NCBI RefSeq assembly: GCF_027484945.1 | Contig: NZ_JAIXRZ010000017.1 | Coordinates: 1 to 64,000, forward strand | DNA length: 64,000 nucleotides | Source of the DNA: Flavobacterium sp. | GTDB lineage: Bacteria; Bacteroidota; Bacteroidia; Flavobacteriales; Flavobacteriaceae | Direction of reading: 5' to 3' | Part shown: one piece after another, positions 45,347 through 61,113 of the stretch | How positions within the stretch are numbered: position 1 is the first letter of the stretch | Layout: each line of letters opens with the position of its first letter | Made by a program: the position numbers and the translations under genes | Notes under the pieces: model-generated | What the model was told of the DNA's origin: nothing | The model's input: the letters and a program-made list of their open reading frames with translations, nothing else | Database searches by the model: none

Positions 45347-48199
45347 TTATCTGGACAAGTACATTTTTCTACGAGCGTACAAGTCGTAAAACTGATCGTC
45401 TTTTAGATCTTCAATAAACAAAATACTTTCTCCAGTCGATTTCATTTCTGGTCCAAGTGCCTTATTCACATTTGGAAACTTATTAAAAGAGAATACCGGT
45501 TGCTTAATTGCAAATCCATTCAATTTTGGATTGAAAGTAAAATCGGTTACTTTCTTCGCTCCCAACATAACCTTGGTGGCAAAATTTACATAGGGTTCCC
45601 CATAAGCTTTAGCAATAAATGGAACGGTTCGAGATGCACGCGGATTAGCTTCAATTATATAAACGATATCGTCTTTAATTGCAAACTGAATATTGATTAA
45701 TCCAACCGTTTGTAGCGCTAATGCAATATTTTTGGTATGGTCTTTAATTTGCTGCATTACAAATTCACCCAAATTAAAGGGAGGAAGTGTTGCATTACTA
45801 TCGCCCGAGTGAATTCCACAGGGCTCGATATGCTCCATAATTCCAATTATATATACATTTTCCCCATCGCAAATCGCATCGGCCTCGGCTTCGATTGCCC
45901 CATCTAAATAGTAATCCAACAACAATTTATTATTGGGGATGTGTTTTAAAATCTCGATCACATGTTCTTCCAACTCTTGCTTATTGATCACAATCTTCAT
46001 CCCTTGGCCGCCAAGCACATACGAAGGACGAACTAATAAAGGGAATTCCAAAACATCGGCCAATTGAAGTGCTTGTTCTGCGTTTTCGGCTACACCAAAT
46101 TTTGGATACGGTATATTCAACTCTTTCAATAAGCCTGAAAAACGACCACGATCTTCTGCTAAATCAAGAGCATCATAACTTGTTCCAAAAATTTTAATTC
46201 CATAACGGTTTAATTTTTCAGCCAATTTCAGAGCTGTTTGCCCTCCCAATTGAACAATTACTCCATCGGGCTTTTCATGTTGGATAATGTCGTAAATATG
46301 TTCCCAAAATACTGGCTCAAAGTACAATTTATCAGCCGTATCAAAGTCGGTCGAAACCGTTTCAGGATTACAGTTAATCATAATCGTCTCATAACCGCAT
46401 TCTTTGGCCGCCAAAACCCCATGAACACAGGAGTAGTCAAACTCGATTCCTTGGCCAATTCGATTGGGTCCAGACCCAAGAACAACTACTTTTTTACGAT
46501 CGGAAACCTGACTTTCATTCGCGGTATATCGATTTCCTGCTGCTGTTTCAATTTCAGCTTCAAAAGTCGAATAATAATAAGGTGTTTGTGCTTTAAATTC
46601 GGCCGCACAAGTGTCTACTAATTTATACACGCGTCGAATATTCATTTCTTCACGTAAACGGTACACCTGACTCTCTAAACAGCCCAACATGTGCGCAATT
46701 TGACGGTCGCCATATCCTTTTTGTTTCGCTTCCAATAATAATTCTTTTGGCAACGTATCAACCCGGTAGTTGGCAATTTCTTTTTCTAATAAATACAATT
46801 CTTCGTATTGCTTCAAAAACCATAAATCAATCTTGGTAATTTCATGAATACGACTCAACGGAATACCCATTTGGATTGCATCATAGATAACAAACACGCG
46901 ATCCCAACTCGCATGCGTTAATTTCTCAATAATTTGTTCGTAATTTTTATATCCTTTACCATCAGCACCCAATCCGTTACGCTTAATTTCTAGGGATTGC
47001 GTCGCTTTGTGCAATGCCTCTTGGAAGGATCGACCAATACCCATCACCTCGCCTACTGATTTCATTTGCAACCCTAAGGTACGATCAGCCCCTTCAAATT
47101 TATCGAAATTCCAACGGGGTATTTTTACAATTACATAATCCAATGTAGGTTCAAACAACGCAGAAGTGGACTTCGTAATTTGATTTTGCAATTCATCTAA
47201 GGTATATCCTAATGCTAATTTTGTAGCAATTTTTGCAATTGGATAACCCGTTGCCTTCGACGCAAGAGCAGACGATCGCGAAACACGCGGATTGATTTCT
47301 ATTGCAACAATATCCTCTTTCTCATCCGGAGAAACCGCAAATTGCACATTGCAACCTCCCGCAAAATTTCCAATAGAACGCATCATATGAATAGCCATAT
47401 CGCGCATTTTTTGGAAGGTAGTATCCGATAAAGTCATTGCTGGCGCAACCGTTATGGAATCACCCGTATGAATCCCCATTGGATCCATATTTTCGATGGA
47501 ACAAATAATTACAACATTGTCATTTTTGTCGCGCAACAATTCGAGTTCATATTCTTTCCAACCCAAGAGCGCTTTATCAATCAATACCTCATGAATAGGC
47601 GACGCCTCCAAGCCACGGGTTAATAATTCATCAAAATCTTCTTTACGGTGCACAAAAGCCGCTCCTGTTCCTCCCAATGTAAAGGAAGGACGAATCACTA
47701 AAGGAAAACCAAACTCCTGGGCAATTTCTTTGCCTTTTAAGAATGAATTTGCCGTTTTAGCAGGCGCATAAGGAATTCCAATTTCACTCAATAATGTTTT
47801 AAATTGGTCGCGGTCTTCGGTTACATTAATCGCATTAATATCTACCCCAATTAACCGTACACCAAAATCTTTCCAAATACCCTTTTCTTCGGCTTCCAAA
47901 CATAAGTTCAACGCGGTTTGACCACCCATAGTAGGCAATACGGCATCAATAGAAGGGTGTGCTTTTAAAATTTCAATAATGGATTTTGTCGTTAACGGCT
48001 TTAAATAGATATGATCCGCCATTGCTGGGTCGGTCATAATCGTTGCCGGATTTGAATTGATTAAAATAACTTCAATTCCTTCTTCTCGAAGCGAACGGGC
48101 GGATTGTGACCCAGAATAATCAAATTCACAGGCCTGACCAATGATAATCGGACCTGAACCAATAATCAAAACGGATTTGATAGCGGAATCTTTTGGCAT
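45347..48199 (-). CDS. carB: Carbamoyl-phosphate synthase large subunit lacking the regulatory domain
   Basis: A 950-residue large subunit, with the glutamine-dependent small subunit not in the window. Together they make carbamoyl phosphate for pyrimidine and arginine synthesis. The two ATP-grasp halves are complete: IIGSGPIIIGQACEFDYSGS and MGGQTALNLCLE in the first, VLGSGPNRIGQGIEFDYSC and QLGGQTALKLAEKL in the second. The chain stops after the second half (GESILFIEDLKDDQFYDLYA), so the C-terminal MGS allosteric domain of E. coli CarB (1073 residues) is absent. The short form appears to be the usual flavobacterial one, not a truncation. Confidence 0.96.
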   Translation of the reverse strand: MPKDSAIKSVLIIGSGPIIIGQACEFDYSGSQSARSLREEGIEVILINSNPATIMTDPAMADHIYLKPLTTKSIIEILKAHPSIDAVLPTMGGQTALNLCLEAEEKGIWKDFGVRLIGVDINAINVTEDRDQFKTLLSEIGIPYAPAKTANSFLKGKEIAQEFGFPLVIRPSFTLGGTGAAFVHRKEDFDELLTRGLEASPIHEVLIDKALLGWKEYELELLRDKNDNVVIICSIENMDPMGIHTGDSITVAPAMTLSDTTFQKMRDMAIHMMRSIGNFAGGCNVQFAVSPDEKEDIVAIEINPRVSRSSALASKATGYPIAKIATKLALGYTLDELQNQITKSTSALFEPTLDYVIVKIPRWNFDKFEGADRTLGLQMKSVGEVMGIGRSFQEALHKATQSLEIKRNGLGADGKGYKNYEQIIEKLTHASWDRVFVIYDAIQMGIPLSRIHEITKIDLWFLKQYEELYLLEKEIANYRVDTLPKELLLEAKQKGYGDRQIAHMLGCLESQVYRLREEMNIRRVYKLVDTCAAEFKAQTPYYYSTFEAEIETAAGNRYTANESQVSDRKKVVVLGSGPNRIGQGIEFDYSCVHGVLAAKECGYETIMINCNPETVSTDFDTADKLYFEPVFWEHIYDIIQHEKPDGVIVQLGGQTALKLAEKLNRYGIKIFGTSYDALDLAEDRGRFSGLLKELNIPYPKFGVAENAEQALQLADVLEFPLLVRPSYVLGGQGMKIVINKQELEEHVIEILKHIPNNKLLLDYYLDGAIEAEADAICDGENVYIIGIMEHIEPCGIHSGDSNATLPPFNLGEFVMQQIKDHTKNIALALQTVGLINIQFAIKDDIVYIIEANPRASRTVPFIAKAYGEPYVNFATKVMLGAKKVTDFTFNPKLNGFAIKQPVFSFNKFPNVNKALGPEMKSTGESILFIEDLKDDQFYDLYARRKMYLSR

Positions 48200-48307
48200 G
48201 TTGTGGTGTAGTTTAGTTGGTTTTAGTTGTGTTTGTCAAAATTAGTCGGTTTTCAAAACTTTTAAAAAAATCGAAAGTGTCAACTTATCAATAGTTATAA
48301 ACAGTAT

Positions 48308-48342
48308 AAAAAAAAGGCGCTACTAAAAAAAGTAACGCCTTT
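48308..48342 (-). terminator. Terminator of rpmH
   Basis: A stem AAAGGCG / CGCCTTT with inner TACT/AGTA pairing; on the minus strand a T run follows. It lies 20 bp after the rpmH stop. Confidence 0.75.
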
Positions 48343-48361
48343 ATATATGATTAATTAATCA

Positions 48362-48523
48362 TTATTTTTTGTGTCTTGGTTCAGAAGAAACAGTCAATTT
48401 ATGTCTTCCTTTAGCACGACGACGAGCAAGGACTTTTCTACCATTTGCAGTAGCCATTCTTTCCATAAACCCGTGTTTATTTCTTCTTTTTCTTTTCGAG
48501 GGTTGAAATGTTCTTTTACTCAT
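48362..48523 (-). CDS. rpmH: 50S ribosomal protein L34
   Basis: A 53-residue protein with the full L34 signature: [20 protein letters not shown], then [20 protein letters not shown]. It is a basic component of the large ribosomal subunit. The C-terminal extension VSSEPRHKK is of the Bacteroidota type. It is followed by its own terminator and is divergent from the TPR-protein gene. Confidence 0.98.
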
Positions 48524-48647
48524 TGCTTGCTATCTTTAAATCCTGATAAATATTCTTCGATTACGGCTTTTCAAAACCGAGTGCAAATATACAAAGCTTT
48601 TTAATACTTGCAAGTGCTTTTTTAAAAATATTTTAAATTCCTTTTAG

Positions 48648-48655
48648 TACATTTG
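48648..48655 (+). promoter_or_regulatory. -7 promoter box for the TPR-like membrane protein gene
   Basis: TACATTTG matches TAnnTTTG and ends 19 nt before the ATG at 48675. Confidence 0.55.
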
Positions 48656-48674
48656 CAACATAAATTAAATAAAT

Positions 48675-49190
48675 ATGTTTCATAGAAATATCAAAATCCT
48701 ATTAACCGTTTTAATTTTTGCTTTAGCGGTATGGCAATTTACTGAAAACAATATTGGAAATGGCATCTTTTTATGTCTAGTATCGCTACTTCCTTTAGCA
48801 TTATATTTTCGTAATGAATATATATTATTGGCATTTTTGCAAATGCGTAAACAAAATTTTCCTGGCGCCCAAAAATGGTTAGCCAAAATTAAAAATCCGG
48901 AAACCGCTTTAATAAAAAAACAACAAGGCTATTACAATTACCTTCAAGGTTTGATGGTGGCGCAAACCAACTTGAATCAAGCCGAGAAATTCTTTAAAAA
49001 AGCGATTGAATTAGGTTTAAACATGGACATGGATCTAGCCGTAGCCAAACTTAACTTAGCGGGAATTGCACTTTCTCGTCGTCGCAAATTAGAAGCAACC
49101 AACCTCATTAACGAAGTGAAAAAGTTGGACAAACAAGGGATGCTTAAAGAGCAAATCACGATGATGAAAGACCAAATGAAACGTATCTAA
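48675..49190 (+). CDS. Membrane-anchored TPR-like protein of unknown function
   Basis: A 171-residue protein. The first 55 residues form two hydrophobic helices (ILLTVLIFALAVWQF, GIFLCLVSLLPLALYF). The rest is helical with TPR-like spacing (GYYNYLQGLMVAQTNLNQAE, KFFKKAIELGLN, AVAKLNLAGIALSRRRKLEA). It is a conserved-looking flavobacterial protein with no assigned role. The gene is single and is followed by a terminator. Confidence 0.75.
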   Translation: MFHRNIKILLTVLIFALAVWQFTENNIGNGIFLCLVSLLPLALYFRNEYILLAFLQMRKQNFPGAQKWLAKIKNPETALIKKQQGYYNYLQGLMVAQTNLNQAEKFFKKAIELGLNMDMDLAVAKLNLAGIALSRRRKLEATNLINEVKKLDKQGMLKEQITMMKDQMKRI

Positions 49191-49194
49191 CACA

Positions 49195-49218
49195 AGACTC
49201 CGAAAGGGGTCTTTTTTT
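49195..49218 (+). terminator. Terminator after the TPR-like gene
   Basis: A stem AGACTCC / GGGGTCT (one G-T) with a GAAA loop is followed by seven T residues. Confidence 0.75.
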
Positions 49219-49561
49219 ATGCTTATTGTTCAAGCACATTAACACACTAACGGTATCGTTTGAGTGTATTTTGGTTTTATTGTAAATTTTAGATTAGAAA
49301 TTATAATTCTGCTAAAGAGAAGCTTGTGGAATATCCCATTTATTTGTTTCGAGAAAAGAAGATAGAAAAAACACTTGTCTTCAATTGTTTTGGAACTAAT
49401 TGCTGAGGGCTGACCGCTAAAATTCAGTCTACAATCCACAATCTACAATCAAAAGATGGCAATAATAAAAATGGCTTCAAATTAATTTTAAATCAATATT
49501 CAATAAATGTAAAACATTACCTGTAAAACTTTACTATATTTGATGTAGTAAAATAAAAAAA
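49219..49561. other. Intergenic region before the caspase locus
   Basis: AT-rich with no supported gene. A 7-bp direct repeat TCTACAA-TCCACAA-TCTACAA lies at 49428-49448. A -7 box TATATTTG at 49535-49542, 19 nt before the ATG at 49562, is the likely start of transcription into the lipoprotein and propeller-caspase genes. Confidence 0.55.
49535..49542 (+). promoter_or_regulatory. -7 promoter box of the lipoprotein/propeller-caspase operon
   Basis: TATATTTG is a perfect TAnnTTTG match 19 nt before the ATG. No clear -33 TTG is seen at the right distance. Confidence 0.55.
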
Positions 49562-50464
49562 ATGAGAAAAGTATTGGTTATCATTGCATTACTACCTTTT
49601 GTAGCGTGCTCTACGCACAAGCGCTCACACATTAAAGCCGATGAACAATTTGTCGTTGAATTAAAAAAACCTGCTTCACGAGGGGGTGCATTAGAATTGG
49701 CGTTGCAGGGTTTATTCATTGGGGCAAATTATATTGCTGAAAAAACATCCAATTCCCTTACAAGTTCTTATGTAAAGTCCATTTCAATCAACGATTACTA
49801 CTATACCGACGATTCGGGTAAACCTGAAAAAACCTATCAAAAAATTCACATCAAAAAATTCGCCAAACCCATTAAACCCGAAGATAAAGTTGCATTGGGT
49901 GAAGGATTAAAATCTGAATATGAGGCGCTACCAAAAACTAGAGGTTCTAATTCAAGTTTGGAACTATCGGATGTAATTCGAACAGAAAATGACGATTTGC
50001 TTAATTTTCATGCGGTAATTGAACTTATTAGTGATCCCGAAAATCCCGGCATTACGCGATTGAGCTTTAATGAGTTGCGAATTCTTTTTTCAAAAACTCG
50101 AATTTATACCGACGAAAATCTTAATGCTAAAATCTCAATTGCAATTGAAGGACAATGGCGTAGTACCGATGGATCACCAATGGTTAAGAAACTTATTGAA
50201 CAATCCTATGAATTTCACAATCTAAAATATGGTTATGAAAATCAAATTTCAGAACCCATCCTATCGCCTTGGTATTACGACATTCCCATTACCTCTGAAA
50301 TTGAAAATAATTCCAAATATGGTTTAGTCAATGTAACCATTCAAGTCGAAGAGTTTGAAGGAGGTAAAAGTAAATACATTAATAAACTCCCTGGAATTTT
50401 AAGTGATAATAAAACAAAAATTGTTAAAGACGGTGCTTCTGTAATTGAGAAAATTATTAAGTAA
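49562..50464 (+). CDS. Lipoprotein of unknown function, partner of the propeller-caspase
   Basis: A 300-residue lipoprotein (lipobox in ALLPFVACSTH). I do not recognise a family. The N-terminal part has a small Gly/Ala-rich segment (GGALELALQGLFIGANYI) that could contact the membrane. The rest is mixed beta (SISINDYYYTDDSGKP, FHAVIELISDPENPGI, LVNVTIQVEEFEGG). Its stop codon overlaps the start of the 1038-residue caspase gene (the A of TAA is the A of ATG), so the two products are very likely made together. It ends with a short helical tail, VIEKIIK. Confidence 0.8.
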   Translation: MRKVLVIIALLPFVACSTHKRSHIKADEQFVVELKKPASRGGALELALQGLFIGANYIAEKTSNSLTSSYVKSISINDYYYTDDSGKPEKTYQKIHIKKFAKPIKPEDKVALGEGLKSEYEALPKTRGSNSSLELSDVIRTENDDLLNFHAVIELISDPENPGITRLSFNELRILFSKTRIYTDENLNAKISIAIEGQWRSTDGSPMVKKLIEQSYEFHNLKYGYENQISEPILSPWYYDIPITSEIENNSKYGLVNVTIQVEEFEGGKSKYINKLPGILSDNKTKIVKDGASVIEKIIK

Positions 50465-53400
50465 TGCGTTTTTTATTTTTGTTCATTTCATGTAACTTAC
50501 TTTTTTCACAAAAAGTAAGTGTTCATCCTTTAGACACTATTCCTCCTTCATCTAATTATTTTGTAGGTTCATTTATGCCCAATGACAATTGGATTGTTTA
50601 TGGAACCCCTCACCAAACTTTAACCACTTCATTTAAGTACTATAGCAAAGGAACATTTCACAACCGATTTTCACAATTTGCTTTTAACGAATATTTACAA
50701 CAAAAATTCAAAACCGCTGAACTAATTCGAGAAATACGATACCTTAATACAAATACGGGCAAAGCTTTGTTTTTTAACAACGATATCGATTATTTACAAC
50801 AAAAGTATTACATCTATTCTTACGATTTCATCAATGACCAACTTGAGGTAGTATTGGACTTGAACGAAAAATATTTACCCGAAATTTTGGATTATCACGA
50901 ATCGACCAATCAATTGCTTTTGAGCAATGAACCTTACCATCCAAATTATTCAAATCCCCAAAATGTTTATTTAATACAAAATAAAACTAGTATTCAACTT
51001 AACGGGAAATTTAAACATGTAAAATTTTCAACAAACGGAAAATTCATACTAACGATAAATGAAAGCGATCTATTAGAAATAATTGATACACAATTAAACC
51101 ATAGTTTAACTTACAAACTTATTCCTGGAACCTATACGGTTAATAGCTGGGGTGAAGCCAATTTTTTAGTTTCTAATACTCATCATTCATCTCTACCCAA
51201 TCGTTGTTTAAAAGAGACCATCGTTTTGAATTTAGATCAAAACAACCAATACCAAACAGAAACAAAAGATTGTAGCTATGTAACCCATTTGGTGAATAAA
51301 AAGGACGCCGTTGCTATTTATTTAGAAGATGTTGGACTAGTCATCAACCAAAAAAAAATGCCCCTCATTTTTACGAATCCACCGAAAGCAATTTCGTTTA
51401 ACGACGATACTTCAAAAATTATGATTAGTTTTCACGAAGGTAAAATTGGGATCTATGACACGACAACTTTTGAAGAACTTGGCGGGATGTACCATCCTTC
51501 GCAGAAAGAACATCTATTCTATAGTTCAAATGGTTTCTATTTTAGCAATACCAATGCTGAACAATTTTTATATGCCACTTCAAATAATAAAAGAATACAA
51601 CTTTCAACAGTTGATAGCCAAGTTTTTAATCCAATAGCAGTATTAAACATATTTGGCAAACCCGATGCGAATTATGTTGCAATACTCAAAAAAGCCATAG
51701 AATTACGAAAGGATAAAAAAGATTTAGACGTCAATTTTTCGCAGAATTCTTCCAATTCTATTGAACCAGTCAATACCAATAGACAAACGGGGACAAATTT
51801 ATATGTATTAACTATAGGTGTAGCTGACTATATACAGAGCGAATACAATCTAACGTTTGCAGATAAAGATGCATTAGACATTGCTGATTTGTATGGAAAA
51901 CTTGATACGGAAACTGAATTGTATTATCAAAAGAAATTTTTTGGAAATCGATTTACCTTACAATTTTTAAACCGCAAGTTCGAGTATCGCATGAAAAGAC
52001 ACTTGAGCACGGATCTTTCACTTGGCAATTGGTTTACAATTCAAAATGACAATACCAAATGGCTGGAAATTAGGGCTAATGAGGCATTGATTTGGGACTT
52101 TAAATCAGAAAAAATTGAGCCAATTCAATTACCCAATGGATTCCATCTAGATTTTTTTTCAAAAGAAAACAGTGTTTTTTTTCATCCAGATTCAAATAAA
52201 TTCTATGTGCGTGATGGTGATTTTGTATTTTACCAATACGACAAACTCACCAGTTCTTTTCAAAGAACTGAGCTCCCATTTAAAGTGAAAGACTACTATT
52301 CTAATTTTTATCAACCCATCAACAATGAGCAATGGGTCTATATTGAAGATATGCAAGATGGAACCTATCAACTTTCCATGGGTAAATGCAATTCGACAAA
52401 TTTGGAATTGTTCACGTTTGATTTGAAAATATTTTATGATTATAATCGTACTACACTTTTAAATAGTGACCCAAATTATAGTCCACAATTTAAATGTATT
52501 TCTTCCAAAGGTGATCAGATTATCTATACCTTAAATAATGAAATTTTTTTAATCGATAGTAAAAATAATGCGACCCCTATTCGATTGCCTATTGTAGTTG
52601 ATTCGAGTGATGATATAGCAATATCGGCAACGAATACACTGAGTATTTTACACTCAACGAATGGAAATTATCAAAATCATATCACCGTATATTCATTTGA
52701 CGGTACTGTATTGGAAACTTCTTCAATTGAGGAAGGAAATCAATTTAATACCCGTGGGATTTCTATACATGATGCTAATCCGTGTTGGATTAAAGAATCA
52801 AAGGGAATATTGGAATCAAACTACTTTACCACTTCGAATAATTTGGCTCGTTATAACCCATTCTCATTTCAACAGGTAAACGTAGCAAGTCTAATAAACA
52901 ATCAAGCAACCGCTCAAGCGGTTAAAGAAAAATTTCCACTGTTTTTTAAAGGTGTAAAACCTGAAGATGAAGTAATTGTTTTTTTAGCCGGACATGGTGT
53001 TTTGGATGCTAATAACAAGTATTACTTTGCACCCCATGATATGGATTTTAATCAGATTTCAAAAAAAGGAATTGGTTTTGAATTTTTGATTGAGCAGTTA
53101 AAATCTTTGCCCACAAAGAATAAACTTCTTTTAATGGACACTTGCCACTCTGGAAATACTTTAGATTTAGAAACCTCAACAAACTCGAATGCAGCCGAAA
53201 AGGGAAATATGGGCGTGCGAGGAAGTATCTCAAAAGGGATCAATCAGAAAACAGCATTTAAATTATCTGATGTGGTTTACTCGGTTTTTGACAATTTTTT
53301 ATCTACAAGTAGTGTAACTATACTTTCTGCTTCATCTGGTGGAGACGTAGCTTATGAAAATGAAAACTTGGGAAATGGTGCTTTTACTACTGCCTATTTA

Positions 53401-53580
53401 AAAGTGTTGAGAGAAAAAATGACATATTTAGTTTTACGTGAAGAAAACACAAAACGAGAACTCCTTTTGAATGACGATATTATTGCAAAAATAATGAGTG
53501 AGGTAGCTAACTTAACTCACGGAAAACAAATTCCCGATATCCGAGAAATCAATTCGACTGCGCAAATTAAACTTTGGTAA
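50464..53580 (+). CDS. Exported propeller-caspase with a propeller-like insert inside the caspase domain
   Basis: A 1038-residue protein with a signal peptide (MRFLFLFISCNLLFSQ). Residues about 25-430 look like a WD40-type propeller. Caspase (C14) elements begin at 445 (NLYVLTIGVADYI, then NLTFADKDALDIADLYGKL). Before the expected next strand comes some 300 residues of repeated beta strands (about 495-800), and then the caspase resumes: VASLINNQATAQAVKEKF, catalytic His 844 in FLAGHGVLD, and catalytic Cys 894 in LLMDTCHSGNT. The frame is continuous, so this is an insert and not a frameshift. Both catalytic residues are kept. It ends 4 bp from the stop of the convergent caspase-TPR gene. Confidence 0.85.
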   Translation: MRFLFLFISCNLLFSQKVSVHPLDTIPPSSNYFVGSFMPNDNWIVYGTPHQTLTTSFKYYSKGTFHNRFSQFAFNEYLQQKFKTAELIREIRYLNTNTGKALFFNNDIDYLQQKYYIYSYDFINDQLEVVLDLNEKYLPEILDYHESTNQLLLSNEPYHPNYSNPQNVYLIQNKTSIQLNGKFKHVKFSTNGKFILTINESDLLEIIDTQLNHSLTYKLIPGTYTVNSWGEANFLVSNTHHSSLPNRCLKETIVLNLDQNNQYQTETKDCSYVTHLVNKKDAVAIYLEDVGLVINQKKMPLIFTNPPKAISFNDDTSKIMISFHEGKIGIYDTTTFEELGGMYHPSQKEHLFYSSNGFYFSNTNAEQFLYATSNNKRIQLSTVDSQVFNPIAVLNIFGKPDANYVAILKKAIELRKDKKDLDVNFSQNSSNSIEPVNTNRQTGTNLYVLTIGVADYIQSEYNLTFADKDALDIADLYGKLDTETELYYQKKFFGNRFTLQFLNRKFEYRMKRHLSTDLSLGNWFTIQNDNTKWLEIRANEALIWDFKSEKIEPIQLPNGFHLDFFSKENSVFFHPDSNKFYVRDGDFVFYQYDKLTSSFQRTELPFKVKDYYSNFYQPINNEQWVYIEDMQDGTYQLSMGKCNSTNLELFTFDLKIFYDYNRTTLLNSDPNYSPQFKCISSKGDQIIYTLNNEIFLIDSKNNATPIRLPIVVDSSDDIAISATNTLSILHSTNGNYQNHITVYSFDGTVLETSSIEEGNQFNTRGISIHDANPCWIKESKGILESNYFTTSNNLARYNPFSFQQVNVASLINNQATAQAVKEKFPLFFKGVKPEDEVIVFLAGHGVLDANNKYYFAPHDMDFNQISKKGIGFEFLIEQLKSLPTKNKLLLMDTCHSGNTLDLETSTNSNAAEKGNMGVRGSISKGINQKTAFKLSDVVYSVFDNFLSTSSVTILSASSGGDVAYENENLGNGAFTTAYLKVLREKMTYLVLREENTKRELLLNDDIIAKIMSEVANLTHGKQIPDIREINSTAQIKLW

Positions 53581-53584
53581 CGCA

Positions 53585-56500
53585 TTATGGACGCAAAATA
53601 TAGTTTTGTATCGTATGCATACTATAATGCTCTTTTAACTCATTTGAACCTAAAAACCGTTGATTAACTTTTATAATTGAGGAATCATAACACGTGTCAT
53701 TTCCAATATACCTGCAATAAACGGCTGTTAAAAGCACATCCAATTGGTCGTTTTCATTAAATACCAGTTTCTTACTGTAAAGTGCACACATTTTTTTATC
53801 GTCCAGGTCAATCGCAGACTTTACAATTAGTTTTATTAAATCGTTTTTGTCTTTATTTGAGCATTCATTTTGAAGTAACGATAAACTGACTGTAATTGCT
53901 TCTTGAGGGTTTTGATTCAAATACAAATAATTGGCATATAACCAACCATTTGTCGGAGTTGGATCAATTTCAAAGGCTAACTTATATAAATTTCTAGTTT
54001 GCAAAGGAGTACCAAAACGTTGTTTTTCTTTAGCCATCGCAATAATGTAGGCTGCGATATCACTTTTTTTGTTAACGTAAGGATTGTGCAAATTAGCCAA
54101 CAAATAATTATTTTTCGCATCGGCAAACTGGTTGGTTTCCAACTCGGTTTTTCCAAGTTTTGAATAGACCTTTGCATAAGTAGGGTCGCTAATTAAAGCT
54201 TGGTTATAGGCTTCAACAGCATCTGTAAAGTTTCCCGAATGGAAATAACAATCACCTAATAAATTCCATAAATCGGGCACTTCTTTATGTTTTATAAGGG
54301 TCTGTGTTAAAAACCGAATCGCTTCATCAACTTGATTTTGCTGAATCGCTAGGCCTACTAACTTTGTATGCGAAGGTATATAGAGAGGGTTTAAAGCAAT
54401 CGCTTTCAAATAATTTTGCTTTGCTCCTTGAACATCATTATACGCTTCATATAAAAAATCGGCATAATTAAAATAAGCTAATGGCTGGGATGTATTATTC
54501 TGTATGGCCTCTTCCATTATTTTTTTGGATTCTAATTTTTTTCGCATTTTGAAATTCAACCATGCTTTTCCTGAATAGGCTGCTACATGATAAGGATCTA
54601 GAGCAATCGCTTTGGTGTAAAGTGAATCGGCCAAAACCTTTCGTTGCGAATTAAAATAATGTAACGCAATAAAATCAGCGTATTGCGTATACAGTTCAGC
54701 TAGATCCGGATGCTGTTCAATTGCCTGTATAAAAATCGATTCTGTCTGTTTCAAATCGATTTTATGGTCACTACTGTATTTTGCAATCCCCGCGCGTAAA
54801 AGGGTGGCAAGTGTATCTGTTTGCACCGCTTTATCCAACCATTTTTGCGATTCGATAATAGCGCCTTTAGAAGCGTATAAGTTACTTAACTTTTGCGCAA
54901 TAAACGAACTGTTGGGTTGTGTGGTAAGCGCTTTTTTGTAATTTTCTTCTGCCAATTGATACTTTCCCTCATTTTCATACACAATTCCAAGTTGGATATA
55001 AGTATTTGCATTCACACCCTTCACCCCTAGTGAACTATCAATAAGTTGTTTGGCTTCTTCAAATTTATTTTGTGAAATTAAATTATCACTTATGTTGTGC
55101 ACAGGAGTAGACCAGGTTGAAATTAATTTTCGGGCTTCATTAAAATGATAATGTGCACTATCATTCTTTTGTTCCCATGAGTAAATCATTCCCATAGCAT
55201 TATGAATATATGCTGCATTGGGGACTATTGATAATGCTTCTTTTAATTTTTTTTTGGCTTTTTTTATACCAGGATAATTTTTGCTTCGTATGACGGCATA
55301 GGATTCTAAAAGCAATTTACTTGCCGTGATTCGAGGGTACATATAGTCTTCTTTATCCATCAATTGCAAACAAATCTCTAAGTGTTTGGCTTGTTTTAAA
55401 AATTCATTAGCAAAAGGCAAATCCCTATTCCCATTGATATAATCATTGATTAAGTTTTGAGCCGAATTAGCTAATTTCTCAATTAATTTTGATTGCATTG
55501 CCGTTAACAAATCGGATGGTATTTTTGGATTTAGCTTAGCTGAATTATAAAGCTCTAATGCGCTTTTGGGTTTTCCATAAAAATCTTTACGCCGCAATGC
55601 ATCGGAAAACTCTTGATAGACTTGTTCATAAACTTCATCTTTTACGTTTGTAGGAAGTACTCCCCGCACACGATCAGCCTTGGGACTATTTTGCTTGGGT
55701 AGATTTCCAAAAACAATTGACTTATCCTCCAAGGTTACCGTTTTATATACTTCCCTACTGTTTTGGGTTTTTATAGTTGGAATTTGACTTTGATGGTATT
55801 TTTGAGAAACACTTTGGTTTACCTTATCATACAAATAATTGTCGATCTCGTTGTATTGAATCTTGCTATCTAGATTTGAATCGGCTTCACCAGCTAATCC
55901 CTTTATTAAATAATACGTAAAATACCCATGTTTAAGTTCACTACTCTCATACGATAATTCATTGGGACCGCAACTTAAAAACTTAATGGATTGCTCAAAC
56001 ATGGATTGAATTGCTCCCATATTTTTTTGGGTACCTTCTTTATAAATAAATCCCGATCGACATGCATCTAATATCAAAAAAACTTTAATCCCTTTTTCGG
56101 TCAATTTAGGCAAGACTTTATCATTTAAATAAGCCAAGGGAACTAGGCCTCCTACTCCATTATATTCTTGATTTGCATTGGAATCAAATGCTAATAAATA
56201 GCCAATTTTTTCATCAAAATCGTCAACTACATCACCATGGCCAGCAAAATAAATATAAACGATATCTCCCGAAACGGATTGTGCATAAATACGCTTCAGT
56301 TCTTGGGCAATTCGCATTCCAGTTGCCTCTTCATTGGCTAAGAAACATATGTTTTCATCACTAACTTTTTCAACTTGCGCTAAAAAATTTTTAAACATAA
56401 AGGCATCATTATCCGCATAATTCAATTTTAATTCATTGGATTGATAATCAGAAATGCCAATTACTAAAGCGCGCTTTTCACCTACTGAATTAGAAGTTAT

Positions 56501-56593
56501 TTTGGTCGATATCGCCCCTCTTGAATCATGTTGAGCTGATAATCTCCAACCAAACATGAATAATAAAAGTATGCAGGTGTTAAATCGCATCAT
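53585..56593 (-). CDS. Exported caspase (C14)-TPR protein
   Basis: A 1002-residue protein with an N-terminal hydrophobic signal (CILLLFMFGWRLSAQ). A caspase domain fills about 38-300: RALVIGISDYQSNELKL, catalytic His 119 in IYFAGHGDVVDD, and catalytic Cys 178 in FLILDACRSGF. From about 330 to 960 it is an array of TPR-type helices (IHNAMGMIYSWEQKNDSAHY, YIQLGIVYENEGKYQLAEEN, LWNLLGDCYFHSGNFTDAVE, VYSKLGKTELETNQFADAKN). TPR arrays bind protein partners, so the substrate or regulator is probably a protein. It lies 65 bp after the metacaspase-like gene on the same strand. Confidence 0.9.
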   Translation of the reverse strand: MMRFNTCILLLFMFGWRLSAQHDSRGAISTKITSNSVGEKRALVIGISDYQSNELKLNYADNDAFMFKNFLAQVEKVSDENICFLANEEATGMRIAQELKRIYAQSVSGDIVYIYFAGHGDVVDDFDEKIGYLLAFDSNANQEYNGVGGLVPLAYLNDKVLPKLTEKGIKVFLILDACRSGFIYKEGTQKNMGAIQSMFEQSIKFLSCGPNELSYESSELKHGYFTYYLIKGLAGEADSNLDSKIQYNEIDNYLYDKVNQSVSQKYHQSQIPTIKTQNSREVYKTVTLEDKSIVFGNLPKQNSPKADRVRGVLPTNVKDEVYEQVYQEFSDALRRKDFYGKPKSALELYNSAKLNPKIPSDLLTAMQSKLIEKLANSAQNLINDYINGNRDLPFANEFLKQAKHLEICLQLMDKEDYMYPRITASKLLLESYAVIRSKNYPGIKKAKKKLKEALSIVPNAAYIHNAMGMIYSWEQKNDSAHYHFNEARKLISTWSTPVHNISDNLISQNKFEEAKQLIDSSLGVKGVNANTYIQLGIVYENEGKYQLAEENYKKALTTQPNSSFIAQKLSNLYASKGAIIESQKWLDKAVQTDTLATLLRAGIAKYSSDHKIDLKQTESIFIQAIEQHPDLAELYTQYADFIALHYFNSQRKVLADSLYTKAIALDPYHVAAYSGKAWLNFKMRKKLESKKIMEEAIQNNTSQPLAYFNYADFLYEAYNDVQGAKQNYLKAIALNPLYIPSHTKLVGLAIQQNQVDEAIRFLTQTLIKHKEVPDLWNLLGDCYFHSGNFTDAVEAYNQALISDPTYAKVYSKLGKTELETNQFADAKNNYLLANLHNPYVNKKSDIAAYIIAMAKEKQRFGTPLQTRNLYKLAFEIDPTPTNGWLYANYLYLNQNPQEAITVSLSLLQNECSNKDKNDLIKLIVKSAIDLDDKKMCALYSKKLVFNENDQLDVLLTAVYCRYIGNDTCYDSSIIKVNQRFLGSNELKEHYSMHTIQNYILRP

Positions 56594-56658
56594 AAGAATA
56601 AATGAAAAAGAGTCCCAGATGGATGTTTTTTAAAGTAACACACCAATCGTTAGAAAAA

Positions 56659-58617
56659 TTATTGTTTTACAATTTTATAAATAAACTCTGTGCTAAACCC
56701 ATCGACATCACTATTGGTAGCATTTCCGGAAGAACCTCTGGATTGACTATAACTTTGTTGAATAAAATGCTCCAATGGATTGACATTTCTACTTCCTTCA
56801 CCTCGCGTGGAAACCGTTGGTTGAAAGTTAATTGGTGTCGTTGTTGAAAATGCTTTGAGCACTAATGTTTCAAAAGGGGGAGCAAATGAATAAATACAAT
56901 CTTTAAAAACCATCGTTTGACCAGGATTTAACTTGCGTTCATCGTTGGTTAACGGACAATTATCATTAGGTAAAAAGGGAGCAATTTCGCCTAAACTATT
57001 GATTTCTATAAGACTTATGTAGAGTGTTTTTTTACTTTTATTAGTTACCTGCAACACGACATTATCTTTACCCGGCACAACTTCAAAAACACCGGCTTCA
57101 TTGGTATTTTTGGAAGAATCAAGAATATCCCCAACTTTACCTGTTGCCTCATCGTATTGAACTGGAAGTAGTTTAACTTCAATTTCATACGTTTGATTTT
57201 TTAAACTTAGATTTTTTAAATATTGCCCTTGTGCAAATTGAAAAAGCGCTTGGTTTATCTCAGCAATAGTTTGCCCACCTCTTGTTTGTTCATCATCCCC
57301 AATGTTTTTTAAACCACTGGGTATTTTTAGAACCGTATTTTGATTTTGATTCTCTAAAATTACATCCGCTTGATCAATAGCAGCAACTACATTACCTAAT
57401 TTATTTTCTGTTAAAAATTGAGTAACTCCAGCAATCAAAGCCTTATCCTTTATTTTTGCATCAAAAAAAACATTTATAGCTATGTCTCCATAGGATAATT
57501 GATCTAAAATCACCCAATAGTCTTTAGCATTCAAGGATTGCAATGGTTTATCTAGTTTGATGTAGGATAAATTAAAACTGGCTTTGGTTACCACACCAGT
57601 GGATACGCAATTTTTATCGGTTGCTTTAATGGTTCCTGAAGGGACGATTTTGACTGTTGTACCTTCAAAAATTCCCTGAATTTTTCCAGCATTTATATGA
57701 ATTAAACTGGGATTGGGTAGTTTTGAAACTTCAAAATAGGGTTGTTGTTGTACATATTCTCCATTAAATAGTTTATAATCAATATCACCTTCAATTGTTG
57801 GCGTTTGTTTTGGTGAAATGACATTCATGTTGGAAGCAATTTTAGAAAATAATTGTCTATAGGTAAAATTACTTCCTAATTCCGCCATCGCTTTGGAAAA
57901 AGCAAAACTCAACGAACCATACCCTTCATATTCATAATTTAATTCGTCGGCAGAAGCACCTGTAAATAATACAAAGGGAGCTGCATTAGGCATAATTTTA
58001 GTACGTTCCAGCATTGCGCTCCCTTTTGTTTTATCTTGATCTAAAGGTTTCCAATCGTCTGGAGCAAACGTAGCTTCACCCCCACGAGATTTTTTTCCAC
58101 GCGTAGTCGAACCCGAATGACAACTATCTAAAATAAAAACCAATTGCCCATTTTTAGATAATTTATTTCTGAAAAGCGCAATAATGTTACCGAGTTCATC
58201 ATCGCGCAAATGATTTTCTCCTTTGTAATTGAATGTATATTTCACCCACGCATCATACGGAACCAAAGCCTCGTCTTTACCATCCACTTCATCTCCATTA
58301 TCATCAAATATTTGTTGCCCATGACCCGAATAATGAAAAACTACGATATCACCCGGTTGGGTTTTGGCTAATAATTTTTCCAAAGCCGTTATAATCCCCA
58401 GTTTTGTCGCCTCTGCATCAATAAGTGTAGTGATATTTTTTTCTTCAAAACCTTGATTTAAAAGTGATTGCTTAATTAGTGGAACATCATTTACCGAACT
58501 AATCGTAGACCAACCCGTTTTCGGCTGGTAGTCTCCAATAGCTACAATTAAACCATATTTTGCTGAAAAACAATGAATTGAAAAAAAAAGAAACAGAAAA
58601 AAAACATTATTTTTCAT
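56659..58617 (-). CDS. Exported metacaspase-like protein with DUF4384-like C-terminus
   Basis: A 652-residue protein with a signal peptide (FFLFLFFSIHCFSAK). The caspase fold (20-285) has type I metacaspase features: His 99 in HYSGHGQQIFDDNGDE, then DGKDEALVPYDA, and Cys 166 in FILDSCHSGST. The middle part has repeated beta structure. Residues about 480-600 look like DUF4384 (LYISLIEINSLGEIAPFLPN, LNPGQTMVFKDCIYSFAPPF, LVLKAFSTT). It is 8 bp downstream of the barrel-protein gene and in line with the caspase-TPR gene. Confidence 0.9.
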   Translation of the reverse strand: MKNNVFFLFLFFSIHCFSAKYGLIVAIGDYQPKTGWSTISSVNDVPLIKQSLLNQGFEEKNITTLIDAEATKLGIITALEKLLAKTQPGDIVVFHYSGHGQQIFDDNGDEVDGKDEALVPYDAWVKYTFNYKGENHLRDDELGNIIALFRNKLSKNGQLVFILDSCHSGSTTRGKKSRGGEATFAPDDWKPLDQDKTKGSAMLERTKIMPNAAPFVLFTGASADELNYEYEGYGSLSFAFSKAMAELGSNFTYRQLFSKIASNMNVISPKQTPTIEGDIDYKLFNGEYVQQQPYFEVSKLPNPSLIHINAGKIQGIFEGTTVKIVPSGTIKATDKNCVSTGVVTKASFNLSYIKLDKPLQSLNAKDYWVILDQLSYGDIAINVFFDAKIKDKALIAGVTQFLTENKLGNVVAAIDQADVILENQNQNTVLKIPSGLKNIGDDEQTRGGQTIAEINQALFQFAQGQYLKNLSLKNQTYEIEVKLLPVQYDEATGKVGDILDSSKNTNEAGVFEVVPGKDNVVLQVTNKSKKTLYISLIEINSLGEIAPFLPNDNCPLTNDERKLNPGQTMVFKDCIYSFAPPFETLVLKAFSTTTPINFQPTVSTRGEGSRNVNPLEHFIQQSYSQSRGSSGNATNSDVDGFSTEFIYKIVKQ

Positions 58618-58625
58618 TAAAAAAA

Positions 58626-60053
58626 CTAATTTAAATTGAAAATACTGAAAGAAATACCAAAATAAAAACCAAATTCATAAACGTTTTTAGTGAAACTATT
58701 CACATCATTAAACACCGTTGGATCACCCACGTTGAGTCCGTTGGTTAATTTTTTAACTGGACCGTAAGCTAATCCTCCCGAAAGGGCTATACGACTTTTA
58801 CTGCCAAGTATTAATGAAGGACCAAATAAATAATTAATCCCGTTTACAGCGTCAGAAATCGGAATAGAAACTCCAAAACTGCCTCCAAAATTAATATTCT
58901 CCCCAATTACCGGATAGAAATTAATCATAGTACTTAAATTGGGGGTAAAATAATTATTTGCTTCAGAACCTATTACCCCATTTTCATCAATAAAATAGTC
59001 GTAGGATTTGGATTTAAAATTATTTAACGTTAATGCAACACTTGTGTTAATCTTAAATCCGCCTTTCGCAAGTAATTTGATATGTCTTGTTTTAAGTGTT
59101 GCTAGAGCGGCAGCTCCATTGTCTGATCCATCAGTATCGTTTTTAGTAGTAAATTCACTTTGAACAAACTGCAATTCCAAATTCACCTTATCTGCAGTAA
59201 TTTCATAATCATAGGTTTGCTCAAAAGATGAGGCTTCTAATGCGGAATACAATTCTTCAATCTTTGTTAAATTTTCAGCGGTCCAATTGGAAGACTCTTT
59301 TAGGTTGGCGATCAATTTTTCCATTGAAGTATACGAAACATTTTGCCCTAGTAATTCACCGCGAGTTACCGATTTATTTTCGGTCATCAATTGTTCCATT
59401 TCATTTTTAATGTCCGAAATTTTATAAGCCAATGCTTCGGCATCTTCATTTACAATTTTTTTCAAGCTCGAAATGTAGATATGGAAATTTTGATTGGGGT
59501 CAGCAATTCGAGCATCCTCTTGAATTGAGGCGGCTTTTCTCAAATTTTGTAAAATAGTTGCTTTATCTAAATTTGGATTCGATAAATCGGCAATCATGCT
59601 CTTTTTTAAGGCATCTACATTGATTGCAACAGTATTTAATTGGGTAAACGCATTGGAAATATTCTCTCCTCGAGAAGCACTAGCCTGTTGAAAGAGCTTA
59701 TTGTTTGAAGGCAAATTTGCAACATTCAATTTCAAATCACCTCCAGCTGCCGAAGATATTCCCCCTAACAAATTAGAAAAATTAAATCCTTGGCTACCTG
59801 TTGCATGAATTTCTTCTTCTTTTACATCTGTTTTTATTTTTACAGCAAATGGGTTAACATTAATTAACTTAATTTCAATTAAGCTGTTTCTCTTAAACTT
59901 AGGATTTTCAAGGGTATCAATTATCTTATTGGACTTATCCAACTTGAAGTATGTAAATAAATCGGTTTTGTAATTGTACTGAATGCGATAACGCTCTTGC
60001 GCATGAGACATCGATGAAACAATAAAAAGCAATATAAATAACTTGGTCTTCAT
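58626..60053 (-). CDS. Exported protein with C-terminal beta-barrel-like region, caspase operon
   Basis: A 475-residue protein with signal peptide (MKTKLFILLFIVSSMSHAQ). The N-terminal 80 residues are beta-rich. A helical central region (about 100-280) has QNLRKAASIQEDARIADPNQ and DIKNEMEQLMTENKSV. The last 160 residues alternate in the way of an outer-membrane barrel (HIKLLAKGGFKINTSVALTL, YEFGFYFGISFSIFNLN). I do not recognise the family. It is the first gene of the minus-strand operon leading to the metacaspase-like and caspase-TPR genes, so it may be their outer-membrane partner. An in-frame ATG seven codons upstream is less likely. Confidence 0.75.
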   Translation of the reverse strand: MKTKLFILLFIVSSMSHAQERYRIQYNYKTDLFTYFKLDKSNKIIDTLENPKFKRNSLIEIKLINVNPFAVKIKTDVKEEEIHATGSQGFNFSNLLGGISSAAGGDLKLNVANLPSNNKLFQQASASRGENISNAFTQLNTVAINVDALKKSMIADLSNPNLDKATILQNLRKAASIQEDARIADPNQNFHIYISSLKKIVNEDAEALAYKISDIKNEMEQLMTENKSVTRGELLGQNVSYTSMEKLIANLKESSNWTAENLTKIEELYSALEASSFEQTYDYEITADKVNLELQFVQSEFTTKNDTDGSDNGAAALATLKTRHIKLLAKGGFKINTSVALTLNNFKSKSYDYFIDENGVIGSEANNYFTPNLSTMINFYPVIGENINFGGSFGVSIPISDAVNGINYLFGPSLILGSKSRIALSGGLAYGPVKKLTNGLNVGDPTVFNDVNSFTKNVYEFGFYFGISFSIFNLN

Positions 60054-60145: not shown

Positions 60146-60619
60146 CTATTTTTTACTTGAAAAATGCTGTTGAGTTAGCTGTTCAATAAGTGCTGCTTTT
60201 TCTTCAAATGATTGAATTGGATAAGCGTAGATTTTACCATTCACACTAAATTCGATGGAACTTTGATCTTCACCATCCTGCTGTTGCGTATCTGTGGGCA
60301 AATTGGGATTAGAATCAAAGTGACTTAAATTACTCCAGTCGAAAGGTTGAATCTTGATGCGCGTATGAACTACCGGATCGTCTCCTTTTTTATCAAAATA
60401 GATCATTTGATTTTTGACTACAATCCATTCTAATTGAAATTGTGACTCGGGTGCTAAAGTACCATTACTTCGAAATAATCGAATCGTATCGGCAATCAAT
60501 ACGTTAGATTTAATTTCAGATTTACTTGCGGGAGTATCCAATTTATCCTTGCGATTTTGGCAGCAAAACAATACTACCGATAATAAGACCAGTATCGTCT
60601 TTGAACGTTCGTTTTTCAT
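60146..60619 (-). CDS. Exported or lipid-anchored protein of unknown function
   Basis: A 157-residue protein with a hydrophobic leader containing a possible lipobox (LLSVVLFCCQNRKD). The C-terminal part is polar and beta-like (QFQLEWIVVKNQMIYFDKKG, SIEFSVNGKIYAYPIQSFEE). No family is recognised. It lies 53 bp downstream of another small lipoprotein gene on the same strand. Confidence 0.65.
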   Translation of the reverse strand: MKNERSKTILVLLSVVLFCCQNRKDKLDTPASKSEIKSNVLIADTIRLFRSNGTLAPESQFQLEWIVVKNQMIYFDKKGDDPVVHTRIKIQPFDWSNLSHFDSNPNLPTDTQQQDGEDQSSIEFSVNGKIYAYPIQSFEEKAALIEQLTQQHFSSKK

Positions 60620-60672
60620 ATTCTAGTTTTTAAGCACTAAACTCAATCGTGATTCCTTTATTACGCGCCGTA

Positions 60673-61113
60673 TTAGAAAACATAGATTCGATCGGCTACT
60701 TTGTTTTTACGGTCAATATTTTTGTTTTTAACGCGTAATCCCTCCGATGAATAATCCAACAGTAATAGATGTTCTTGGGTAATCATTTCCAATCCATAAC
60801 GCAACTCAATAACCGGACCACAGTTTTCAAAATGACCATAGGGATATACCGTACGTTCACCAGGAACACAAGGTTTTACAACCAATGTTTGAATTTTATA
60901 TTTTTTAAAAAATGCACGAATCACCGTGTCGTTTTTGGGGTAATTATTGTTCCTGTATTCTTTAAAATCGTTCATAACATTGATCTGCTGCAAATAGTTC
61001 TTAAAGGCAATTATCTCCGATGTATTGGCCTTATTCATTACTGAGGAAACAAATGAACTACTTCCGCAACTTGATAACAGAAGCAAACTAATAAAAGGTA
61101 TTACTTTTTGCAT
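60673..61113 (-). CDS. Small lipoprotein of unknown function
   Basis: A 146-residue lipoprotein (lipobox LLLLSSCGSSS). It has a helical N-terminal half (NTSEIIAFKNYLQQINVMND) and a C-terminal part with two cysteines (VKPCVPGERTVYPY, FENCGPVIELRYGL) that could pair in the periplasm. It is not recognised. Probably co-transcribed with the gene at 60146. Confidence 0.65.
   Translation of the reverse strand: MQKVIPFISLLLLSSCGSSSFVSSVMNKANTSEIIAFKNYLQQINVMNDFKEYRNNNYPKNDTVIRAFFKKYKIQTLVVKPCVPGERTVYPYGHFENCGPVIELRYGLEMITQEHLLLLDYSSEGLRVKNKNIDRKNKVADRIYVF

Follow-up and report, generated by a model that had tools for sequence, protein, structure and literature searches.

Exported caspase-fold proteins and their neighbours in a Flavobacterium locus share an (S/T)RG motif: a putative self-processing protease module

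The stretch of DNA analysed here, referred to below as the window, comprises 64,000 nucleotides of a Flavobacterium sp. contig (NZ_JAIXRZ010000017.1, assembly GCF_027484945.1) from a genome of 2.28 Mb in 73 contigs with a completeness of 89.6%. A first-pass annotation made from the letters alone had singled out five neighbouring genes, three of them coding for exported proteins of the caspase fold (family C14), and had suggested that they form one proteolytic cascade in the cell envelope. All five open reading frames (ORFs) were recovered at the same coordinates and are called here p1, a lipoprotein; p2, a caspase of propeller type; p3, a caspase-TPR protein; p4, which combines a caspase with a DUF4384-type tail; and p5, a presumed barrel-like protein. 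The features of the locus, including the Arg-Gly (RG) sites discussed below, are:

49562..50464, plus strand: p1, lipoprotein of 300 amino acids (aa), lipobox Cys16 (by eye), RG sites R40 and R127; assigned from ORF, motif and relatives, no Pfam match.
50464..53580, plus strand: p2, exported propeller-type protein of 1038 aa with a split C14 domain, dyad H844/C894, RG sites R764 and R919.
51913..52851, plus strand: insert of about 310 codons in the caspase fold of p2, lying between the first helix and the strand after it (ends approximate).
53218..53223, plus strand: R919-G920 of p2 in the p20/p10 linker, a likely self-processing site.
53585..56593, minus strand: p3, exported C14 domain followed by a TPR array, 1002 aa, dyad H119/C178, RG sites R25 and R310.
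56659..58617, minus strand: p4, exported metacaspase-like C14 protein with a DUF4384-type tail, 652 aa, dyad H99/C166, RG sites R173, R178, R446, R605 and R627.
58096..58101, minus strand: R173-G174 of p4, seven residues past the catalytic Cys, in a low-confidence segment of the model.
56734..56739, minus strand: R627-G628 of p4, the C-terminal site, ahead of the last beta-strand (641-649).
58626..60053, minus strand: p5, exported protein of 475 aa, C-terminus described as barrel-like in the first-pass annotation, [ST]RG sites R128 and R231.

The presence of three C14 genes with intact His/Cys dyads and export-like N-termini inside 8.2 kb was confirmed. Pfam C14 matches above the cut-off were obtained for p2, p3 and p4, the dyads were re-derived as listed, and these three places were the only matches in a C14 search of the whole genome. 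All five proteins have an export-like N-terminus according to a crude rule, by which 339 of 709 unlabelled genes neighbouring the later loci introduced below are marked as well. The stop codon of p1 overlaps the start codon of p2 (TAATG), in agreement with the translational coupling described earlier, and p4 and p5 are separated by a gap of 8 bases. Promoter and terminator scans of the locus gave results at chance level only. A type IX C-terminal tail of the Por_Secre_tail type was not found with NCBIfam: the model TIGR04183 reached 15.4 bits (cut-off 23), internally and in p2 only, and it was listed neither for p1, p4 or p5 nor among 25 of the 26 matches of p3.

The active-site motifs DTCHSG (p2), DACRSG (p3) and DSCHSG (p4) are not of the metazoan type (C14A), whose motif is QACxG, and the residue two positions before the Cys is acidic in all three (DTC, DAC and DSC). 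In p4, D44 and D164 are invariant across 60 aligned rows and probably correspond to the S1 residues Asp95 and Asp211 of Trypanosoma brucei MCA2, of which one lies on helix 1 and the other two positions ahead of the Cys, an equivalence that in the case of D44 is judged from its position; active metacaspases strictly prefer Arg/Lys (part of PMC4357240, also the source for the MCA2 residues). The nearest solved structures to p4 are Metacaspase-1 (4f6o), Arabidopsis metacaspases 4 and 9 and GSU0716, with Z values of 22.5-24.2 over 227-246 residues for metacaspases 4 and 9; these matches are filled by the caspase part and barely cover the tail. DUF4384 itself falls below the Pfam cut-off in the p4 of the window and is present in 11 of 12 family members. 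According to the match with the MCA2 residues and to the nearest structures being metacaspases, we propose that these enzymes would cut after Arg. Asp substrates, which had been put forward alongside Arg/Lys ones, are disfavoured because the acidic S1 residues are those of metacaspases that cut after Arg/Lys.

The tripeptide [ST]RG occurs in all five window proteins, 11 times in 3467 aa when 0.56 would be expected from composition, and the other 46 genes of the window hold 4 against 4.2 expected. Since the motif had been chosen after reading the window proteins, it was tested on other data. In a first set of relatives, C14 genes carried 99 [ST]RG against 18.6 expected, 75 of them in 16 p4-type proteins, and the counts were 14 against 10.2 for genes adjoining C14, 15 against 8.7 one place further out and 54 against 52.0 for all others. 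A search of named genomes, from which the best 80 loci were taken, supplied 73 later loci with a p4 of at least 600 aa, five of them on contigs of the first set. In these loci p4 contained 174 [ST]RG against 12.0 expected with the first site left out, a count that omits the stretch behind the catalytic Cys favoured by the search pattern itself; without the five repeated loci the figures were 156 and 11.3 in 68. The motif was also abundant in p5 (16 against 1.3), p1 (5 against 0.2), a small secreted protein encoded beside p4 (26 against 0.9), another lipoprotein family (3 against 0.3) and weak p5 relatives (6 against 2.1), and showed no enrichment in unlabelled genes farther off than two places (52 against 61.2). 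The reversed motif GR[ST], used as a composition control, was rare in the same proteins: 11 against 249 [ST]RG in p4 (75 proteins, all sites), 0 against 16 in p5, 0 against 5 in p1, 1 against 28 in the small protein and 0 against 11 in the window five, compared with 124 against 95 in 849 unlabelled genes. The relatives of p3 contributed 3 [ST]RG in 5 proteins.

The same proteins also tend to be encoded together. A labelled partner was present within the fetched flank in 50 of the 73 p4 loci, namely another C14 gene (32 loci), a strong p5 (8), a weak p5 (10), the small secreted protein (17), one trypsin-like type (5), p1 (3) or the other lipoprotein family (2). All eight strong p5 genes (476-539 bits) lay directly upstream of p4 on the same strand. 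In L170, a locus from a metagenome-assembled genome, p5-p4 faces p2-p1, which is the window order minus p3, and two Winogradskyella loci (L166 and L176) contain p5, p4, a p2-like gene and close relatives of p3 (808 and 837 bits). Furthermore, among 296 genomes of the class (own included), 16 others had a p4 match of at least 290 bits, one of them cut by the contig end. One of these, G133, belongs to another family and has p2 on the plus strand facing p3 and a p4-like gene on the minus strand, as in the window, together with a second caspase-TPR gene and a lipoprotein gene that need not be p1; p5 was absent from the stretch fetched there. In G165, p4 is directly upstream of p3. All five genes together were found in no other locus among those fetched. 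The suggestion of a single system is largely upheld, because the combinations p5 with p4, p2 with p1, p3 with p4 and p2 with p3 and p4 recur elsewhere and all five window proteins have an export-like N-terminus by the crude rule; the five-gene set is a real association that is modular rather than obligate.

Within Flavobacterium, C14 genes were detected by Pfam in 2 of 60 other genomes and through p2 in a third (G001), a count that is a lower bound because the many-genome Pfam scan missed one of the window's own three C14 genes. In contrast to the earlier view that bacterial caspase relatives usually stand alone, grouped C14 genes are not rare: runs of three (L094), four (L075) and six (L093) occur in fetched loci of other Bacteroidia. 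Multi-metacaspase operons, with up to three genes per operon, are likewise described in part of PMC3501461. The six genes of L093 (G236:C96:335000-352000) stand in a row on one strand and encode proteins of 690-748 aa with signal-like N-termini (by eye).

The p4 model, obtained with 60 rows, has a mean predicted local distance difference test (pLDDT) score of 86.8 and four segments below 50. Three of these contain motif sites, R173 in 169-173, R446 in 438-447 and R627 in 627-631 (chance P ~0.0007); the fourth is 197-201. R173 is Arg in 60/60 rows, and the two linker sites, R173 and R178, are RG in 58 and 59 of 60. At the C-terminal end, R627 is Arg in 60/60, RG in 50/60 and [ST]RG in 44/60 rows in the midst of a variable flank (identity 0.15), and R605 is RG in 31/60.

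Conserved sites were also found in p5, p1 and p3. Both p5 sites are [ST]RG in 9/9 sequences, with flank identities of 0.23 and 0.27 compared with 0.54 overall; p5 has no match by sequence in Pfam or PDB. In p1, whose relatives in L169, L170 and L171 score 340-394 bits, the first site is RG in 4/4 with flanks as conserved as the whole protein (0.55 and 0.56), and the second is RG in 3/4 at the aligned column, and one residue off in the fourth, with a flank identity of 0.19. The close relatives of p3 have RG right behind the signal peptide in 4/5 cases and near the caspase/TPR junction in 3/5. The first-pass annotation had seen in p5 or p1 a sensor or an anchor; as each carries two conserved motif sites, the evidence favours them being substrates. 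Homology between p1 and the other caspase-side lipoprotein family (L066, L068, L069 and L114) was considered and is not supported (hmmsearch 5.1 bits, with 3 of 500 shuffles higher; hhalign probability 1.4%). Distant p5 relatives also occur in L082 and L083 (G276 and G358), about 6 and 22 kb from a p4 on the same contig, where they adjoin genes similar by eye (TPR, lipoprotein, M23-like and glycosyltransferase). Upstream of p5 in the window, two small lipoprotein-like genes (60146-61113, minus strand; 157 and 146 aa) lack RG and have no relatives in the 80 named loci.

The caspase domain of p2 is present, as annotated, and is divided into two parts (residues ~441-483 and ~797-1038) by an insert of ~310 residues after the first helix that had been overlooked. 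The caspase parts are contiguous in 22/22 first-found p2 relatives, with a short lengthening of the loop concerned in L068, L069 and L080. One later relative, the p2 of L170 (genome CROMO_A_74), also has the insert: its alignment with the window protein runs through the insert without interruption and shows 30% identity in 1030 columns, which excludes an assembly error as the cause of the split. The Pfam C14 match begins at model position 43 in both. Propellers, also assigned to p2 at first, have weak Pfam support only, and since a single-sequence fold was uninformative (pLDDT 30.3) the propeller nature of the insert is a conjecture. The subunit-linker RG is present in 9/11 p2-like proteins of p4 loci. 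With p2 as the query, a search for related loci confirmed no relative, and the best other match in 299 genomes of the family (own included) scored 88.5 bits.

Two further motif carriers were identified beside p4. The small secreted protein consists of a signal peptide, ~20 residues, RG, ~20-35 residues, a second RG and a C-terminal part of ~75 residues, with the first RG missing in one of ten aligned proteins. A profile of ten rows, nine of them from p4 loci, matched 18 of the 296 genomes at E <=0.001. The score exceeded 80 bits in 14, and 13 of these 14 have p4. Five of the genomes are outside the profile sources. Four of the five have p4, on a different contig from the small protein (G193, G298, G390 and G340), and the fifth, G386, lacks a full-length p4 and has propeller caspases; the best copies in all five retain both RG sites. 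The two-site layout recurs in another secreted protein of G386 (L164), which is 128 aa long and has a different C-terminus, Tyr/Cys-rich and of ~20 residues, like a peptide precursor. The second carrier is a trypsin-ankyrin protein, defined by its N-terminus and checked by Pfam in two members, which has [ST]RG in the pro-segment in 6/7 full-length sequences and PRG in the seventh (text search).

This second carrier bears on an alternative, in which the (S/T)RG sites are real and another Arg protease, an exported trypsin-like enzyme or one of family C25 or C11, cuts them and thereby activates the caspases from outside, the caspases then acting on targets of their own. The sites would suit any Arg protease. 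Moreover, a trypsin-like gene adjoins p4 in 9 of the 16 class genomes (by inspection; four checked by Pfam) and in 5 of the 73 named loci, and trypsin-ankyrin genes lie near p4 in other loci. However, the motif persists where no trypsin-like neighbour is labelled, in the window as well as in other loci, and in the window's genome the trypsin-ankyrin query matched through an ankyrin part only. In addition, both p2 and p4 have a site between p20 and p10, and this linker is a usual place of self-processing in caspases. We consider an outside activator unlikely, if the least improbable of the alternatives.

All these data suggest that the locus encodes exported, metacaspase-type, Arg-directed proteases that mature themselves and their co-encoded partners at (S/T)RG, between Arg and Gly, a reading to which we assign a probability of roughly 60%. 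Several observations count against it. The linker sites R173 and R178 are near the active site and have conserved flanks (0.57 and 0.46 compared with 0.33 overall), so that they could be structural, and R446 is kept in just 14/60 rows and is RG in 10/60. Enrichment does not separate the set from its neighbours cleanly, as it extends to unlabelled genes no more than two places off (40 against 24.4; 1.6-fold) and to other C14 genes (38 against 10.9; 3.5-fold). One trypsin type is at expectation (1 against 1.1), and the p2-like relatives have no clear enrichment (7 [ST]RG and 10 [ST]KG in 12 proteins). Because alignment rows are related, Fisher and Poisson values overstate independence. A search of the window's genome for the small protein gave two weak candidates that look unrelated on reading and no true copy, and four genomes with weak matches (<26 bits) lack a full-length p4, which lowers the co-occurrence to 13/18 when they are counted. 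Three trypsin-ankyrin relatives (one fragment and two distant) have RD instead of RG. Lastly, a labelled partner is missing from 23 of the 73 p4 loci, of which 9 are shorter than 12 kb.

The p4 loci without a partner and the C14 runs elsewhere would also be expected if there were no system at all, that is, if exported caspases simply pile up in Bacteroidia, the neighbourhood reflects chance or shared secretion biology, and RG is a folding feature. Against this, p5-p4 pairs recur, a p2-p1 pair was found, the small protein co-occurs with p4 across different contigs, and the motif is kept in unrelated families in variable or low-confidence stretches. We regard an absence of any system as very improbable.

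In the mechanism that we favour, based on self-processing at (S/T)RG, the three proteases would leave the cytoplasm as zymogens and act presumably beyond the inner membrane. p4, and probably p2, would mature by cutting their own RG sites in the linker between the caspase subunits; further sites of p4 flank its DUF4384-type tail, and those of p3 lie behind the signal peptide and between the caspase and the TPR array. The propeller and TPR parts may hold partners or substrates. p1 and p5 would be the likely substrates: a cut at the p1 site 24 residues past the presumed lipid-bearing Cys would detach p1 from the lipid, and cuts at the two sites ahead of the presumed barrel would set part of p5 free. 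The small secreted protein, with two sites ahead of its C-terminal domain, and the trypsin-ankyrin protein, whose pro-segment has one site, may serve as such substrates in related loci. The enzymes would cut their own linkers first and then the co-encoded precursors. A proteolytic cascade, as proposed in the first-pass annotation, thus receives indirect support from the shared motif, as far as sequence can tell.

Other genes were observed in the vicinity of exported caspases. CHASE2 proteins are encoded near them in four loci (L169:17377-18537, L175:16385-17551, L066:16576-17820 and L124:11743-12927), in three of which a gene for ~260-310 aa lies between the CHASE2 protein and the caspase; these two products could possibly be a sensor pair. 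CHAT and TPR-CHAT proteins, from another caspase-fold family, are encoded within two p4 loci (L165:11978-15392 and L166:12049-15900).

Such neighbours are compatible with an envelope-facing conflict or self-killing system, in which propeller, TPR and CHASE2 parts would sense and the caspases would destroy envelope proteins of the cell itself or of a rival. Caspase, trypsin and alpha/beta-hydrolase genes cluster in conflict systems (part of PMC7159879), and genes of these kinds, together with CHAT, are found in the related loci. Additionally, C14 is sparse in the genus, a PADLOC caspase model was matched, and the G+C content of the locus (window 48001-60000) is 32.5-33.9% compared with 35.6-38.2% in the rest of the window, which fits recent acquisition and is no proof of it. 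However, no NTPase or nucleotide-signal domain was found by Pfam in the eight locus proteins scanned, the PADLOC matches cover the caspase part of the model alone (best stretches of PDLC02987 inside positions 2-130 of 453), and the neighbouring proteins resemble precursors with conserved cut sites. A conflict function appears rather improbable to us, and as the purpose of self-processing at (S/T)RG the regulated maturation of envelope or surface proteins is more likely than cell killing.

Bacterial caspase relatives are usually framed as agents of cell death, and we know of no natural substrates for most of them. The motif, conserved in the linkers of zymogens and in exported proteins encoded beside them, supplies candidate substrates and cut sites that can be put to the test, and it points to caspase work outside the cytoplasm. 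Isolate genomes for such tests exist in Leeuwenhoekiella, Lutibacter, Parapedobacter and Winogradskyella. On a broader scale, an exported cascade across Bacteroidia, in which several caspases, a trypsin-like protease and dedicated precursors (the lipoprotein, the barrel-like protein and the small two-site protein) share the (S/T)RG code and one caspase is regulated by an insert in its fold, seems to us an even chance; substrates of bacterial caspases would then be readable from sequence. A caspase fold tolerating a 310-residue insert after its first helix would be a new way to regulate such enzymes. In the open-licence literature, including parts of PMC3501461, PMC4933709, PMC4357240 and PMC7159879, we came across no description of an exported module in which several caspases have a motif in common.

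Several known systems share features with this locus. The gasdermin-type systems and Craspase are cytosolic. Bacterial gasdermin with its caspase-like protease and Craspase (TPR-CHAT) resemble it in having a caspase-fold protease with the target or partner encoded nearby; they have a single protease and another target, whereas here several proteases are exported. The caspase/trypsin effector modules of conflict systems dependent on nucleoside triphosphates (NTP) also combine a caspase with a trypsin or an alpha/beta hydrolase (part of PMC7159879, whose main text lacks the terms 'signal peptide' and 'secreted'), but there is no NTPase in the locus proteins scanned here. The gingipains (family C25) mature fimbrial precursors. 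Like the proteases proposed here, they are exported Arg proteases of clan CD that process themselves at Arg sites (part of PMC4357240), although they belong to a different family, and in our locus the presumed targets are encoded beside the protease. The closest relatives are the metacaspases and orthocaspases (MEROPS C14B), which have the same fold, His/Cys dyad, DxC motif and acidic S1 residues. WD40 and TPR fusions and possible signal peptides in bacterial metacaspases were already reported in a 2012 survey, the relevant part of which does not remark on a shared cut motif (PMC3501461). In comparison with the metacaspases, the Flavobacterium locus is distinguished by export, by three fused types side by side, by an insert in one of the folds and by a motif common to the co-encoded proteins.

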